The notes under the pieces: model-generated
What the model saw: the letters and a program-made list of their open reading frames with translations, nothing else
Databases searched by the model: none
Told to the model about the DNA's origin: nothing
NCBI RefSeq assembly: GCF_024055665.1
Contig: NZ_JAMXMC010000008.1
Coordinates: 186,001 to 250,000 of the forward strand
Reading direction: 5' to 3'
DNA length: 64,000 nucleotides
Source of the DNA: Ideonella oryzae
GTDB taxonomy: Bacteria > Pseudomonadota > Gammaproteobacteria > Burkholderiales > Burkholderiaceae_C
Program-made: the position numbers and the translations under genes
Shown: piece by piece, positions 20,027-48,684 of the stretch
How positions within the stretch are numbered: the stretch's first letter is position 1
Layout of the letters: every line of letters begins with the position of its first letter

Positions 20027-20119
20027 CCACTTCGCTAGGGGTGTTGGCCCGCCGCAAGGCAGGTCGACTGAGAGAGTCCCTTTGAACCTGATTGAGGTAA
20101 TCCTCGCGCAGGGAAGCCG
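20027..20119 (+). promoter_or_regulatory. TPP (thiamine pyrophosphate) riboswitch
   Basis: The conserved THI-box elements occur in order: AGGGGTG (20037-20043), CTGAGA (20068-20073), CCCTTTGAACCTGAT (20078-20092), GGTAATCCTCGCGCAGGGAAG (20097 to 20116). CTTC (20030-20033) can pair with GAAG (20113-20116) as part of P1. The element lies about 80 bases before the TonB-receptor start and is separated from fdxA by a terminator. The intervening sequence has a GTGTC/GACAC hairpin (20145-20163) that could be part of the expression platform. TPP normally switches such genes off. Confidence 0.93.
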
Positions 20120-20196
20120 TGTTCAGCGTGCCACCGTTCGTGTGGTGTCGCCTCTCCTGACACTTGCCTCTCTGCCATCGACATGGATGTTCCACG

Positions 20197-40464: not shown

Positions 40465-42888
40465 TCAAGCACGCAGGCGTGCGCCGTGGGCCGCTTGCAC
40501 CCGAGCCACCGCGGCGGCGATGACCGCCTCGATGCGCTCGTCGTTCAGCGTGGTCTCGTTGTCCAGCAGTTCCAGGCGCACCGCCAGGCTGCGCTCGCCT
40601 GCCGGGATGTCGGCCGTGGGCTGGGCCGGCTTGTAGATGTCGAACAGCACCGCCGTGCGCACCAGGCCTTGCGGGTCAGCGCGCAGGGTGTCGATCAGGG
40701 CTTCGTGGCTGACCTTGTCGGAGACCACCAGGGCCAGGTCGCGCAGGCTGCTCTGCTGGCGCGGCACCGGCTGGGCGACCGGCACGGGGCGTGCCTGCAC
40801 GGCGGACAGATTGAGCTCGAACAGCACCGGAGCCTGTGGCAGGTCATAGGCCTGGCGCCACTTGGGATGCAACTCGCCCACATGGCCGATCACCTCGCCA
40901 TCCAGCAACACCGCGGCACAGCGTCCCGGGTGCATGGCGGGATGCTCGGCCGCCTGGAAGCTGGCCTTGTACGGCGCGAGCAGCGCTTCGACATCGCCCT
41001 TCGCATCGAAGAAATCGACGTTGCGCTCGGGCTCGCCCCACTGCAGCGGCAAGGCCTGACCATAGGCCAGACCGCCGACATGCATGGGCTGGCAGACACC
41101 TGCGACGCTGGTATCGGTGGAGGCCACGCTGGCGTCGCGCCAGAACACGCGGCCCACCTCGAACACCCGCACGCGCGAGGCCCGGCGCGCCAGGTTGTAC
41201 TTGAGCACATTGACCAGGCTGCCCATCAGGCTCGAGCGCATCACGGCCAGCGGGGCGGCGATGGGGTTGAGCACCTTGATCGGGTCCTCGTTGCCGGACA
41301 GCTCACGCTCCCAACGTTCCTCGACGAAGCTGAAGTTGATCGTCTCCTGGTAGCCCAGTGCGGCCAGGGCATGGCGCACGGCGTGGCTGCTGCGGCGCGC
41401 CTCGGGGCGCACCTTCACGGTCACCGGAGCCAGCGGCGGGGTGGCGGGCAGGCGGTGGAAGCCCAGCACCCGCACCACCTCCTCGATCAGGTCTTCCTCG
41501 ATCGTCAGGTCGAAGCGCCAGGACGGCGGCGTGACGGTCAGCTCGCCCTCGCCTTCGGTGGTCTGCAGGCCCAGACGCTGCATCACGCCCACGCACTCTG
41601 CCTGGGTGACGGGCATGCCGATGACCTTGGCCGCGCGGGCCACGCGCAGGCGCACCGGCCGGCGCTCGGGCATGGCCGGCTGCACGTCGGTGATCGGGCC
41701 GGCCTGGCCGCCGCAGATCTGCTGCACCAACGCAGTGATGCGCTCGATGTGCTCGACCGTCTGCTGCGGGTCCACACCGCGTTCGAAGCGGTGGCCGGCA
41801 TCGGTCGAGAAGTTGAAGCGGCGCGAGCGGCCGGCGATGGCCGTGGGCCACCAGAAGGCAGCTTCGATGTAGATGTTGCGGGTGTCGTCGGACACGGCGG
41901 TGGCGTCACCGCCCATGATGCCGGCCAGCGATTCGACGGCCTGGTCATCGGCGATCACGCCAACCTGGCCATCCACCGTGATGGTGTTGCCGTTGAGCAG
42001 CTTGAGCGTCTCGCCCTCGCGGCCCCAGCGCACCTGCAAGCCGCCGTGGATCTTGTCCAGGTCGAAGATGTGCGACGGGCGGCCCAGCTCGAACATCACG
42101 TAGTTGGAGATGTCCACCAGCGGGCTCACCGCGCGCTGGCCGCAGCGCGCCAGGCGCTCGACCATCCAGGCCGGCGTCTGGGCCTGGGTGGTCACGCCGC
42201 GCACGATGCGACCCGAGAAGCGGCCGCACAGGTCGCTGGCCTGCACGTCCACCGCCAGGGTGTCGTCCAGCGCGGGGGCCACGGCGTCGATGCGGGGCGC
42301 GTTCAGCGGCGTGCCGGTCAGCGCGGAGACCTCGCGCGCCACGCCGTACACGCTCAGGCAGTGCGCCAGGTTGGGCGTGAGCTTGAGGGTGAAGAGCGTG
42401 TCGTCCAGGTTCAGGTACTGGCGGATGTCCTGGCCCAGCGGCGCGTCGGCCGGCAGCTCCAGCAGGCCGCCATGGTCCTCGCTGAGCTGCAGTTCGCGGG
42501 CCGAGCACAGCATGCCGAAGCTTTCCACGCCGCGCAGCTTGCCCACCTTGATCTGGAAGGGCTTGCCATCTTCGCCCGGGGGCAGTTCGGCGCCCACCAT
42601 GGCCAGGGGCACGCGGATGCCCACGCGGGCGTTCGGCGCACCGCAGACGATCTGCAGCGGGCCGTCCTTGCTGTGCGGGCCGGCGTCCACGCGGCACACG
42701 CGCAGGCGGTCGGCATTGGGATGCTGCTCGGCCTCGACGATCTCGCCCACCACGATGTTCGTGAACGGCGGCGCCACCGGGCTCATCTCTTCCACCTCCA
42801 GACCGGCCATGGTCAGCAGGTCGGCCAGTTGCTGGGTGGAGATCGGTGGGTTGCAGAACTCGCGCAACCAGGATTCAGGGAATTGCAT
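40465..42888 (-). CDS. pheT: Phenylalanyl-tRNA synthetase beta subunit
   Basis: Charges tRNA-Phe together with PheS. It is 807 aa. The N-terminal EMAP/OB tRNA-binding domain ([28 protein letters not shown]) is followed by the B3/B4 editing region, the B5 domain and the C-terminal anticodon-binding domain ([26 protein letters not shown]). It is 66 bases downstream of pheS and 23 bases upstream of ihfA. Confidence 0.96.
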
Positions 42889-42954: not shown

Positions 42955-44010
42955 TCACTTGAACTGGCTCAGGAAGCGCAGGTCACCGTCAAAGAACAGG
43001 CGCAGGTCGTTCACGCCGTAACGCAGCATGGTCAGCCGGTCGGGCCCCATGCCGAAGGCGAAGCCGATGTAGCGCTCGGGGTCCAGGCCGAAGTTGCGCA
43101 CCACGTTCGGATGCACCTGACCGGAACCGGCCACCTCCAGCCAACGGCCCTTCAGCGGCCCGCTGGCGAAGGCGATGTCCACCTCGGCCGAGGGCTCGGT
43201 GAACGGGAAGAACGACGGGCGGAAACGGATCTCTAGGTCGTCGGTCTCGAAGAAGTTGCGGAAAAAGTCGGCGAACACCGCCTTCAGGTCCTTGAAGGAC
43301 ACGTTCTCGCCGATCCACAGGCCTTCACACTGGTGGAACATCGGCGAATGGGTGGCGTCGCTGTCCACACGGTAGGTGCGGCCCGGCGCGATCACGCGGA
43401 TCTCGGGCATGGCCTGGCCCGCGGCCAGCGCGGCGGCGTGGCGCTTCACATGCTGGACAGCGTGCCGCACCTGCATCGGGCTGGTGTGGGTGCGCAGCAG
43501 GTGGCCGCTGCCATCCGGCGCCTTCGTGTCGACATAGAAGGTGTCGTGCATCGAGCGCGCGGGGTGGTCGGCCGGCGTGTTCAGCGCAGTGAAGTTGAAC
43601 CAGTCTTCCTCGATCTCGGGGCCATCGGCCACCTCGAAACCCATCGAGCCGAAGATGGCCTCGATGCGCTCCATCGTGCGGGACACCGGGTGCAACCCAC
43701 CCATGCCGTGCTGGCGGCCGGGCAGCGAGACGTCCAGCGACTCGGCCTTCAGCTGCGCCTGCAGCTCGGCCTCGGCCAGGGCCTGACGGCGTTCGGTCAG
43801 CAGCGACTCGATGCGCTGCTTGGTCTGGTTGATCTCGGCCCCGCGGGTCTTCTTTTCCTCATGGGACAAGGCGCCCATGCCCTTGAGGAGTTCGGTCACC
43901 TGACCGGCCTTGCCCAGGTAGCGGGCCTTGGCGTTTTCCAGCTCGGCTGGCGTGGCGGCGGCGGCGAAATCCGCCTGCGCAGCGCCCACCAGTAGGTCGA
44001 GATCGTTCAT
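42955..44010 (-). CDS. pheS: Phenylalanyl-tRNA synthetase alpha subunit
   Basis: Catalytic class II subunit, 351 aa. An N-terminal coiled coil precedes the core with [21 protein letters not shown] (motif 1), [19 protein letters not shown] (motif 2) and [17 protein letters not shown] (motif 3). The upstream 110 bases contain a terminator/antiterminator pair, so expression is probably set by attenuation after rplT. Confidence 0.96.
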
Positions 44011-44827: not shown

Positions 44828-45376
44828 TTACTTCTTCTTCGGGGCCAGGACCATGATCATCTGGCGGCCTTCGAGCTTGGGCATGTGCTCGACCACCGCC
44901 ACATCGGCCAGTTCGTCGCGGATGCGCTCCAGCAGCCGCATGCCGATGTCCTGGTGGGTGATTTCACGACCACGGAACCGCAGCGTGACCTTGCCCTTGT
45001 CGCCGTCTTCAGCGATGAAGCGGCGCAGATTGCGCATCTTGATGTTGTAGTCGCCTTCGTCCGTGCCCGGACGAAACTTGACTTCCTTCACCTCGATGAC
45101 CTTCTGCTTGGACTTGGCCTCGGCAGCGCGCTTCTGCTCCTGGTACTTGAACTTGCCATAGTCCATCAGCCGGCACACCGGCGGATCGGCCAGGGCTGCG
45201 ATCTCGACCAGATCGACGTCGTGCTCGGCGGACAAGCGCAAGGCATCCTGAATGCTCACGATGCCCAGCGGCTCGTTTTCCACGCCATTCAGACGCACCT
45301 GAAGCGCTGTGATCTCGCGGTTGAGTCGATGCTTGCGCTCGACGTTCGGAATCCGACGGTCGGCAAAGGTAGCGAT
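44828..45376 (-). CDS. infC: Translation initiation factor IF-3, ATC start
   Basis: IF-3 checks initiator codons and keeps the subunits apart. It is 182 aa. The coding frame extends upstream through [20 protein letters not shown] to an ATC at 45376-45374; there is no ATG, GTG or TTG in frame that keeps this conserved N-terminus (the first, a GTG at 45298, loses 26 residues). GAGGGG lies 8 bases upstream of the ATC. IF-3 genes use AUU/AUC starts in other bacteria for autoregulation, because IF-3 rejects non-standard starts. It lies 81 bases after thrS. Confidence 0.92.
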
Positions 45377-45457: not shown

Positions 45458-47377
45458 TCAGACCTTGGTGGCGATGTCGTTCGCGAGCTTCTCTTGGAAC
45501 TCTGCGAGGGACATCACACCCAGGTCCTGGTTGCCTCGGGCGCGCACCGCGACAGCCCCGCTTGCCTTCTCCTTGTCGCCAATGACAAGGATGTACGGAA
45601 CTTTCTGCAAAGAGTGCTCGCGGATTTTATACGTGATTTTCTCGTTACGCAAATCCGCCTGCACCCTAAGCCCTTGTTTTTGCAACGCTTTCACCACGTC
45701 CGTGACGTAATCCGCCTGGGCGTCGGTGATGGAGGACACCACCACCTGCGTCGGCGCCAGCCAGACGGGCAGCGCGCCGGCATGCTGTTCGATCAGGATG
45801 CCGATGAAACGCTCCAGGCTGCCGACGATGGCCCGGTGCAGCATCAGCGGGCGGTGGCGGTTGCCATCCTCGCCCACAAAGTCGGCGTCCAGGCGCTCAG
45901 GCAGGTTCGGGTCGATCTGGATCGTGCCACATTGCCAGGGCCGCCCCAGCGCGTCCTTCAGCGTGTATTCGATCTTCGGGCCGTAGAAGGCGCCCTCGCC
46001 CGGCAGGTACTCGAACTCGCAGCCCGAAGCCTTCAGGCCGTTGGCCAGCGCGGCCTCGGCCCGGTCCCAGCTCTCCTCCGTGCCGATGCGCTTCTCGGGA
46101 CGGGTCGACAGCTTGTAGATGATGTCGGTGAAACCGAAGTCCTTGTAGACCTTCTGCAGCAGCCGGGTGAAGGCCACCACCTCGGATTCGATCTGGTCCT
46201 CGGTGCAGAAGATGTGACCGTCGTCCTGCGTGAAGGCGCGCACGCGCATGATGCCGTGCAGGCCACCGGTGGGCTCATTGCGGTGGCAGGCGCCGAACTC
46301 ACCGTAGCGCAGCGGCAGGTCGCGGTAGCTCTTGATGCCCTGCTTGAAGATCAGGATATGACCGGGGCAGTTCATCGGCTTGAGCGCGTAGTCGCGCTTC
46401 TCCGACTCGGTCGTGAACATGTTCTCGCGGTACTTGTCCCAGTGGCCGGTCTTCTCCCACAGGCCCTTGTCCAGGATCTGCGGCCCCTTGACCTCCTGGT
46501 AGCCGTTCTCGCGGTAGACGCGGCGCATGTACTGCTCCACCTCCTGCCACACGGTCCAGCCCTTGGGGTGCCAGAACACGGTGCCGGGCGAGTGCTCATC
46601 GATGTGGAACAGGTCCAGCTCGCGACCGAGCCTGCGGTGGTCGCGCTTTTCGGCCTCCTCCAGCATGGTCAGGTACTGCTGCAGGTCTTCCTTGCTGGCC
46701 CAGGCTGTGCCGTAGATGCGCTGCAGCATCTCGTTGCGGTGGTCACCGCGCCAGTAGGCGCCGGCCACCTTCATCAGCTTGAAGTGCTTGAGCTTGCCGG
46801 TGCTGGGCACGTGCGGGCCGCGACACAGGTCCTCGAAGGCGCCCTCGCGGTACAGCGACACATCCTGATCGGCCGGGATGCTGCCGATGATCTCGGCCTT
46901 GTAGGCCTCGCCCTGGTCCTTGAAGTAGGCCACGGCCTCGTCGCGCGGCAGCACGCGGCGCACCACCGGCTCGTCCTTCTTGGCCAGCTCGGCCATCTTC
47001 TTCTCGATGGCCGTCAGGTCTTCCGGCGTGAAGGGGCGCTTGTAGGCAAAGTCGTAGTAAAAGCCGTTCTCGATGACCGGACCGATGGTCACCTGGGCTT
47101 CGGGGAACAGTGCCTTCACCGCATAGGCCAGCAGGTGGGCGGTGGAGTGGCGGATCAGCTCCAAGCCCTCGGGCTGCTTGTCCGTGATGATGGCCAGCGT
47201 CGTGTCCGACTCGATGCGAAAGCTGGTGTCCACCAGCCTGGCTTGCTCGCCGCTGCCGATCTTGCCGCCCAGGGCGGCCTTGGCCAGGCCGGTGCCGATG
47301 GACGCCGCCACCTCGGCCACCGTCAGCGGGGCCGGGTATTCGCGTTTCGAGCCATCGGGCAAGGTGATCGTGAGCAT
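45458..47377 (-). CDS. thrS: Threonyl-tRNA synthetase
   Basis: Charges tRNA-Thr. It is 639 aa, matching E. coli at 642. TGS domain at about 1-62, editing domain with [16 protein letters not shown], class II core with motif 2 [26 protein letters not shown] and zinc-binding Cys in MNCPGH, and a C-terminal anticodon-binding domain. GAGGAA precedes ATG 47377 by 7 bases; an in-frame ATG 7 codons upstream lacks this. It is the first gene of the operon and has a 230-base leader. Confidence 0.97.
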
Positions 47378-47458
47378 CAGGGATTCCTCAAGGGGCACCT
47401 GCAGGTGCCAAGCTGGATTTCAGGGGGAGTGCGCGATGGCCGGCTCAGAAATGCAAAA

Positions 47459-47519
47459 CGCGGCCACCGGGGCCGCGTTGCGAAAGCACAAACAAGAGAC
47501 GCAGGAGTGCACCGCGGCC
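47459..47519 (-). promoter_or_regulatory. Terminator/antiterminator of the thrS leader
   Basis: On the minus strand a hairpin CGCGGCC / GGCCGCG (arms 47471-47477 and 47459-47465) with TTTTGC after it forms a terminator about 80 bases before thrS. An identical GGCCGCG lies upstream (47513-47519), two bases after the stop codon of a 13-codon leader peptide, and can capture the terminator's first arm instead. This is the arrangement of translational attenuation. Confidence 0.6.
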
Positions 47520-47521
47520 GA

Positions 47522-47563
47522 TCAGACCTCTTCGAAGAAGATCGAGGGAGTTCGCGGTGTCAT
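47522..47563 (-). CDS. Candidate thrS leader peptide with tandem Phe codons
   Basis: A 13-aa ORF, MTPRTPSIFFEEV, in the thrS leader. It starts about 47 bases after the expected transcription start and ends 2 bases before the antiterminator arm. It has Thr at 2 and 5 and tandem Phe at 9-10, fitting an operon that charges both tRNA-Thr and tRNA-Phe. The ribosome site (AAAGG, rather far) is weak. A -10 TATACT lies at 47622-47617; no good -35 is visible. Translation is not shown. Confidence 0.5.
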   Translation of the reverse strand: MTPRTPSIFFEEV

Positions 47564-47589
47564 AACCCGTGCTGCCTTTCCCGGTTCTG

Positions 47590-48684
47590 CTAGGTTGTTC
47601 GTGATGACGGAGTGGCAGTATAGCCCGGCTGGGCCGCTTCATCGGTGGCCGCGGACGTCTGTCTTCGCAGGTCACCGGGGGTGCAACCGAACCAGCGGCG
47701 CATCACCCGGCTGAAGTTCGAGGTGTCAGCCAAACCCAGCTGCGCCGCCACTTCCTCCACCGGCAGGCGGGTGTGGCGCAGCAGCCAGAGCGCACGCGCC
47801 TGCCGGGCCTCGTCCAGCAGGGCCTGGAAGGAGCGACCTTCGGCAGCCAGGCGACGCATCAGGGTGCGCGGGCCCAGTTCGCACAGTGCGGCCATCTCCG
47901 TCAGGCTGGGATAGCTGCCGGCCGGCTGACTGCGCAGCAGCCCCGCCACGCGACGGGAAAGGCTGCGCTCCGCCAGCGCGCGCAATTCGGCTTCACAGGC
48001 CCGGCAAGCGGTGGCGTGTGCGCGGGGGTCAGCGCCCAGACAGGCCATGGTCAACACCCGGGCCTCGGCCCGCAGCGCCAGGACGGGCGCACCGAAGCGA
48101 AAACGCACGGGTGCAAAGCGCTGGTATTGCGTGCTCCAGGGTGGCGCCGCGAGGGGCCAGTCCACGCTCAGCCCGTCGGGCAGTTCGCCCAGCGCGGCCT
48201 CCACCAGACGCAGCGTGGCGGCCACCACCGTGTCCAGATAGAAGCCGCGCGCCGGCCCCCAGTCGGCACACTCGCGTCCCACCAGCAGGGTCTGCTCCGC
48301 ACCGGCATCGTCTTCCAGCGCCCAGACCAGTGCCTCGTTGCGCACGGTGCTGTAGCGCGCGAACACCCGCAGCACGTCCCCCAGGCTGGACGCTGTGAGC
48401 GCCGCGTAGCCGATCAGGCCATGCATGGACACCTGGGTCTGTCCACCCAGATCCAGCCCCAGCCAGGGACGGCCGGTGGCGGCCATAGCGGCCACCACCA
48501 GGCGCCGCGTGGTCTCCAACGAGAGGGGACGCTCGTCCTGCCCCAGGGCCTGGGCATCCAGGCCGGCCGCGGCCAGGACCGGCACGGTCTCCACCGACGC
48601 CTGTTCCAGCAGACGTCGCAGCATCCGGGCATAGACCGGGTGGACCAGGGCATCGGTTTCGGGCAGGCGGGCAGTGGCGGACAT
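47590..48684 (-). CDS. AraC-family transcriptional regulator (OruR-type)
   Basis: A 364-aa regulator. The N-terminal ligand-binding region (SATARLPETDALVHPVYARMLRRLL, GYAALTASSLGDVLRVFARYSTVRN) matches the arabinose-binding-domain-like family of OruR-type proteins. The C-terminal double helix-turn-helix contains LGPRTLMRRLAAEGRSFQALLDEAR and VAAQLGLADTSNFSRVMRRWFG. It is divergent from the GMC oxidoreductase with a 16-base palindrome between them, and is likely its regulator. The thrS promoter lies in its 3' end. Confidence 0.9.
   Translation of the reverse strand: MSATARLPETDALVHPVYARMLRRLLEQASVETVPVLAAAGLDAQALGQDERPLSLETTRRLVVAAMAATGRPWLGLDLGGQTQVSMHGLIGYAALTASSLGDVLRVFARYSTVRNEALVWALEDDAGAEQTLLVGRECADWGPARGFYLDTVVAATLRLVEAALGELPDGLSVDWPLAAPPWSTQYQRFAPVRFRFGAPVLALRAEARVLTMACLGADPRAHATACRACEAELRALAERSLSRRVAGLLRSQPAGSYPSLTEMAALCELGPRTLMRRLAAEGRSFQALLDEARQARALWLLRHTRLPVEEVAAQLGLADTSNFSRVMRRWFGCTPGDLRRQTSAATDEAAQPGYTATPSSRTT

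Follow-up and report, generated by a model that had tools for sequence, protein, structure and literature searches.

What decides whether transcription continues into the thrS operon of Ideonella oryzae, and what would the deciding element read? The window, as we call the whole 64,000-nucleotide stretch analysed here (contig NZ_JAMXMC010000008.1, assembly GCF_024055665.1), carries on its minus strand thrS, infC and ribosomal protein genes followed by pheS and pheT. Ahead of thrS, an earlier note on this DNA had seen a small open reading frame with tandem Phe codons and a terminator whose 5' arm has two possible partners. In E. coli, a Phe leader with its attenuator, pheM, precedes pheST; the note proposed that the leader found here would control the entire operon, and that the peptide, with codons for Thr as well as Phe, corresponds to the two synthetases encoded there. 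From the comparative analysis that follows, we consider it very probable that the thrS operon is governed by a ribosome-mediated transcription attenuator with a leader peptide, in which Thr codons would be the constant sensor.

The leader lies where the earlier note had placed it. On the minus strand, a 13-codon open reading frame (47563-47522) encodes MTPRTPSIFFEEV, with Thr at codons 2 and 5 and Phe at codons 9 and 10, and ends in TGA; the same peptide was recovered as the window's own locus (L081) in the set of thrS upstreams described below. It is preceded by a Shine-Dalgarno-like GGGAAAGG (47575..47582, minus strand) and, 59 bases before the leader start, by a promoter-like -10 hexamer, TATACT (47622-47617, minus strand); a consensus scan of the leader region of the window returned no full promoter. 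The hexamer is overlapped by an AraC-like gene upstream (48684-47590, minus strand), whose end is 26 bases short of the leader start. Two bases past the leader stop stands GGCCGCG (47519-47513), the same heptamer that forms the 3' arm of the terminator, as the note had also read. The terminator scan located this terminator, AACGCGGCC-CCGGT-GGCCGCGTT then TTGCATTTCT, at 47479-47457 on the minus strand, its 5' arm being CGCGGCC (arm 3; 47471..47477, minus strand) and its 3' arm GGCCGCG (arm 4; 47459..47465, minus strand) followed by TTTTGCATTT; between 47300 and 47750 there are 3 terminator-like sites, against a shuffle mean of 0.4.

The two competing hairpins proposed in the note are present, but a protector hairpin, formed by codons 2-4 with the post-stop arm, had been missed. 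Its 5' arm, CACCGCG (arm 1; 47559-47553, minus strand), is complementary at every base to CGCGGTG (47516-47510), a heptamer that partly coincides with the post-stop copy of GGCCGCG. Arm 2, GGCCGCGGTG (47510..47519, minus strand), located just 3' of the stop, can hence partner with either arm 1 or arm 3. As read from the sequence, arms 1 to 4 make up a full predicted set of protector, antiterminator and terminator. The minimum-energy fold of the whole window leader contains the arm 1-arm 2 pairing and the terminator together, and the stability of this leader as one folded RNA is not above that of shuffles (z -0.60), so that the evidence for an attenuator is comparative.

We compared 241 thrS loci (L001-L241) from 80 named genome contigs and from further genomes of the family and the order. 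Two loci cut at the start (L070, L074) and three in which the start was not found (L197, L233, L235) were dropped, leaving 236 upstreams. An upstream counted as a leader carrier when no more than two edits separated its leader start from the core. The leader was kept in 159 of these 236 upstreams, a biased sample in which the best matches came first and 40 loci were chosen mostly one per other family; after removal of eight that were identical over 100 bases to another, 151 distinct leaders remained, the window's own included. The comparison with relatives bears out the conservation of a leader. In an even draw of the family, 224 of 299 genomes, belonging to 113 of 141 genera, had the 18-base core around the start codon (pattern GGTKRTGACACCGCGRAC); in the rows listed for this draw, its reversed control pattern had 0 matches. 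From other families of the order, 6 of 38 usable upstreams were leader carriers. Across the class outside the sampled relatives of the order, a one-mismatch core was found in 13 of 169 genomes against 7 for the reversed control, and is hence not clearly above chance there. Likewise, a relaxed 13-base pattern gave 2 matches in the genome (that at thrS and a one-base variant) against 13 for its reversed control, so that we claim no second genomic copy of the core.

The elements around the peptide are kept as well. In 143 of the 151 distinct leaders, a GAAAGG-type motif precedes the start by 8-22 bases; start, frame and stop are retained, and translation of this short reading frame 5' of thrS is predicted. 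A terminator-like site follows within 130 bases of the leader stop in 151/151, the window's site among them, compared with 46-60/151 in five shuffled sets, in which at most 1/151 reached the real median score. A 5-of-6 match to TATAAT occurs 45-72 bases before the leader start, mostly at 48-51, in 113 of 149 leaders, the window's included, against a mean of 5.2 and a maximum of 12 in shuffles. In most leaders, a -10-like hexamer thus lies 5' of the peptide.

The remaining 77 of the 236 upstreams are without such a leader. In several of these (L001, L005, L006, L011, L026, L029, L030 and others), the last 80 bases before thrS hold a GCGCGG...CCGCGC hairpin with a T-run, which sits after a TAAAAT-like hexamer and was seen in 24 of 34 hand-picked leaderless upstreams. 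Some leaderless upstreams lie directly behind a gene that we take to encode an isocitrate lyase-like protein, and in other families (L212, L217, L218, L220, L221, L234 and others) thrS often follows, by eye, a tRNA-Val (GAC)-like gene.

Two layouts stand out among the relatives, with arm 2 either about 4 bases past the stop, as in the window, or about 10 bases past it, as in the Acidovorax type, for instance GTTCGCG with CGCGGAC in 27 leaders. For the pairing of arm 2 with arm 3, we took the first arm-2 core after the stop; 6 of 151 leaders had no arm-3 core and 30 of the other 145 no arm-2 core, which left 115. Among these, the inner variable pair was formed in 80, against 48.8 when labels were shuffled (0/5000 shuffles as high), and the excess persisted with one leader per cluster, both with 76 clusters (48 against 33.8) and with 39 clusters (24.7 against 19.2, median p 0.005). 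The outer variable pair had no excess (77/115 against 74.4). Compensatory changes between the competing arms, which the earlier note had suggested as a check, are hence seen at the inner pair and not at the outer one. By duplex energy, arms 2-3 beat at least 57 of 60 shuffles in 58/151 leaders and arms 1-2 in 35/151, but duplex energy by itself discriminates poorly where GC content is this high. In the layout with some 10 bases between stop and arm 2 (L003, L023, L031 and others), 33 of 50 leaders also form at the stop codon a small hairpin with no fewer than 4 Watson-Crick pairs (CCGGCC...GGCCGG or CCAGCC...GGCTGG, for example), counted without a chance control.

To follow the predicted behaviour of the arms, transcripts ending just short of arm 4 were folded with the ribosome footprint, whose extent was assumed, masked. 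The arm 2-arm 3 pairing had a mean probability of 0.54 when the ribosome was placed at Thr5 and of 0.16 when it was placed at the stop, and in the ribosome-free state the value was 0.28; eight sets with shuffled spacers gave 0.50-0.55, 0.37-0.41 and 0.41-0.47, respectively. As the Thr5 value is not above the shuffles, what appears to be selected is the low values at the stop and in the ribosome-free state. The Thr5 state exceeded the stop state by 0.2 in 85/151 leaders against 42 to 54/151 in the eight shuffled sets, and the opposite occurred in 2/151. For a ribosome placed at the first Phe, the 67 leaders concerned averaged 0.44, below the Thr5 mean, and this state exceeded the stop state by 0.2 in 34/67, with the opposite in 2. 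At the level of the family, masked folding thus predicts the switching expected of attenuation, beyond that of shuffled spacers, and together with the covariation it points to a mutually exclusive antiterminator that would be freed on stalling. For the window leader, a ribosome at Thr5 gave 0.72 and one at the first Phe 0.66; the value was 0.41 for a ribosome at the stop and 0.56 in the ribosome-free state. Without a ribosome, its fold before arm 4 is thus already tilted towards arms 2-3, and when the second Phe codon occupies the A site the pairing of arms 1-2 returns. The switch predicted for the window is weaker than that of the family, so the window alone would make a weak case and the family carries the argument.

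Which codons would the ribosome wait at? Thr5 is found in 151/151 leaders, Thr2 in 147/151, Thr6 in 106/151 and Thr7 in 69/151. After codon 5, cognate codons are in excess: Thr takes 318 of 1340 codons against a shuffle mean of 98.5 (z 24.1) and Phe 89 of 1340 against 22.3 (z 16.0), the two largest excesses by z among all residues, with Glu third at 8.8. Phe codons are commonest in the leader frame, with 89/1340 against 32/1189 and 50/1189 in the other two. Measured against the window proteins, Thr is enriched 5.25-fold, Ser 2.24-fold and Phe 1.97-fold, so that by this measure Ser is enriched as much as Phe. Thr and Phe remain first and second when one random member is taken from each of 57 clusters; with 26 clusters Phe is ahead of Thr, and with 6 clusters (43 codons) Thr is no longer conspicuous. 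No Phe follows codon 5 in 84/151 leaders, and no Thr does so in 16/151, among them that of the window, which has only two Thr codons. A swap of Thr for Phe was considered and rejected: Phe is present in 10/16 leaders that have no Thr run against 57/135 of the others (p 0.18), and the rank correlation of -0.15 (p 0.07) was not significant.

Phe-Phe occurs in 9/151 leaders (0.3 in shuffles), which rules it out as a constant feature of the sensor, and the tandem Phe codons that the earlier note took for the conserved element give way to Thr2 and Thr5. FFFF is found in three leaders (L180, L184, L194), all from genomes of genus g122, and these provide the strongest hint of Phe sensing that the sequences offer. 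We read the Thr codons as the constant predicted sensor and Phe as a real yet variable enrichment. The idea that the codons match both synthetases thus stands in so far as Thr and Phe are the residues most enriched relative to shuffles; sensing of both tRNAs, with Phe as a second input, is plausible and unproven.

The region around the leader start is more constant than that from codon 6 onwards. In the window, the near-invariant core stretch spans 47567-47549 on the minus strand; GGTT precedes the start in 142/151 leaders, and codons 4-5 are CGA-ACT or CGA-ACG in 142/151. CGA and ACT are both rare in the window genes, where 2.1% of Arg is encoded by CGA and 5.3% of Thr by ACT, and CGA is a slowly decoded codon. 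Pairing through arm 1 was rejected as the only reason for the constant CGA-AC, at least where simple partners are considered: neither simple partner motif is present in 62/151 leaders, and 58 of these 62 keep CGA-AC. The pair also persists in other families with different flanks. Simple pairing partners hence appear to leave this near-invariant, rare CGA-ACU pair unexplained. Thr-rich leaders, MAVRTTTTHP and MIMSFRTTTTGTLNQG among them, also stand before thrS outside the family, and 16 of the 77 core-less upstreams contain a Thr-rich short open reading frame against 1.55 expected from shuffles, some of these being chance readings of a tRNA or an upstream gene. In the convincing deeper leaders (MAVRTTTTHP, MFRTSTTTQS and MIMSFRTTTTGTLNQG), the Arg-Thr pair is written CGA-ACT, a count that is biased, as the scan looked for CGAAC.

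Downstream of the leader, all on the minus strand, follow thrS, encoding threonyl-tRNA synthetase (45458..47377, ATG at 47377; NCBIfam TIGR00418, 739 bits), infC for IF-3 (44828..45298; TIGR00168, profile positions 17-170 of 170 matched), whose true start is probably a little 5' of the listed ORF start, an open reading frame between infC and rplT that from its translation we take to be rpmI-like (L35; 44504..44707), rplT (L20; 44121..44477; TIGR01032), pheS (42955..44010; TIGR00468) and pheT (40465..42888; TIGR00472). The 110-base gap that separates rplT from pheS contains, by eye, a 12-pair hairpin with a single mismatch, followed by a U-run (44061-44029, minus strand), with little room for a promoter between it and pheS; a strict scan of this gap in the window returned neither terminator nor promoter, and no pheM-like peptide was seen in it by eye. 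A run of at least 4 T in the last 60 bases of the gap is present in 57 of 68 relatives, counted without a chance control and over loci L001-L080 only, 68 of which (of 80) hold both rplT and pheS. pheST is named as a classical attenuator of gamma-proteobacteria in a passage of an earlier paper (PMC1262725). As a second hairpin with a U-run precedes pheS, the control of pheST by the leader is doubtful, and of the whole operon that the earlier note had placed under the leader, this part is called into question; the hairpin could be a second attenuator, for pheST.

The following model would account for these features. We infer that the transcript starts 5' of the 13-codon leader. With ample charged tRNA, the ribosome would reach the stop codon and cover arm 2, arms 3 and 4 would form the terminator, and most polymerases would halt ahead of thrS. 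A shortage of charged tRNA-Thr would instead hold the ribosome at Thr codon 5, or at codon 6 or 7 in leaders with Thr there, and the ribosome would cover arm 1; arm 2 would then take arm 3, the terminator would not form, and thrS-infC-rpmI-rplT would be transcribed. In the absence of a translating ribosome, arms 1 and 2 could pair, and termination would again be favoured, as judged from the family average. In many lineages, that of the window included, the Phe codons after the Thr codons would probably act as a second input, reporting charged tRNA-Phe. A fuller version, in which a single leader reads the charging of both tRNAs through a near-constant Thr core and a lineage-tuned Phe part of up to FFFF, and in which the CGA-ACU/CGA-ACG pair slows decoding so as to give a sharper stall at the first Thr, or else is a site for some other factor, is put forward tentatively, as a possibility short of a favoured one.

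A pure threonine attenuator, reading only tRNA-Thr and carrying Phe codons incidentally in the window, is a serious contender that we hold to be somewhat short of probable: Thr5 is universal and Thr2 nearly so, yet more than half of the leaders (84/151) have no Phe after codon 5, the leaders listed outside the family are Thr-rich and mostly Phe-poor, and the second hairpin before pheS may uncouple pheST. Against such an exclusive role of Thr speak the rank of Phe as the second most enriched residue relative to shuffles (z 16.0) and its 1.97-fold enrichment over the window proteins, together with Phe-Phe in 9 leaders where shuffles give 0.3 and FFFF in the three g122 leaders. It is unlikely, moreover, that codon identity matters little and that the leader gauges the general capacity of ribosomes or of initiation, since the 5.25-fold enrichment of Thr codons over the window proteins would be needless for a codon-blind device; such a general sensor would fit the genes for IF-3 and the ribosomal proteins L35 and L20 downstream, the greater constancy of the start region and a ribosome-free fold that favours termination in the family average (0.28), if not clearly in the window (0.56).

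The near-invariance of the start-codon core, beyond the needs of a peptide and two simple pairings, would also suit binding of the leader RNA by ThrRS itself, in an autoregulation to which the small open reading frame is incidental. We regard this as quite unlikely, given that the ribosome binding site, the frame and the Thr codons are all kept, as is the nearness of the stop to arm 2, and that a terminator lies downstream. Finally, a similar hairpin close to thrS in the leaderless upstreams (24 of the 34 hand-picked ones) would be compatible with a constitutive, leaky terminator that sets transcript level or stability, the open reading frame having no regulatory role; the concerted changes of arm 2 and the terminator arm, the codon enrichment and the predicted stall-dependent switching make this highly improbable. 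The preferred reading thus remains attenuation by a ribosome translating the leader.

The proposed attenuator resembles several known systems and is identical to none. Like E. coli pheM in its layout, it is a leader of the ribosome type, with a terminator and an antiterminator before a synthetase gene and with Phe codons, but it stands before thrS, its constant codons are Thr, and pheS follows only four genes further on, with another hairpin in between. The leader of the thr operon, thrL (Thr_leader in Rfam), also combines a Thr-rich leader peptide with competing hairpins; it serves threonine synthesis, whereas here a synthetase and translation operon would be controlled. With attenuators of the trpL type, it shares the logic of protector, antiterminator and terminator and differs from them in amino acids and genes, the 5' arm of the protector here lying inside codons 2-4. 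E. coli thrS has a translational operator, a tRNA-like leader that is bound by ThrRS and thereby blocks ribosome loading. The regulated gene is the same and the signal presumably so, but regulation there is translational and protein-based; the terminator anatomy seen here, with its leader peptide, argues for another mechanism. In Firmicutes, a T-box before thrS senses the charging of tRNA-Thr by antitermination, as the present leader would, though by direct binding of the tRNA instead of through a leader peptide. Rfam returned no T-box match in the window leader; when 47370-47720 was compared with 4227 families at E values of up to 10, Thr_leader and Phe_leader were not matched either, the three weak matches being to others. 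Elsewhere in the window, a TPP riboswitch match at 20027-20131 (plus strand) scored 55.9 bits, just over the gathering score. Among the matches listed from open-licence papers, judged by title and start of abstract, no paper dealt with a thrS leader peptide in these bacteria.

On sequence grounds, these thrS leaders appear to be a new family of a known type of regulator and, as the leader of the window is without a match in Rfam 15, they could supply an annotation model. If our reading is correct, many Burkholderiales would place ThrRS, IF-3 and two ribosomal proteins under the control of a Thr leader, a solution unlike both the ThrRS operator of E. coli and the T-box of Firmicutes. Furthermore, since the enriched Thr and Phe codons match the downstream synthetases, a two-input control of a translation operon by tRNA charging becomes directly testable.
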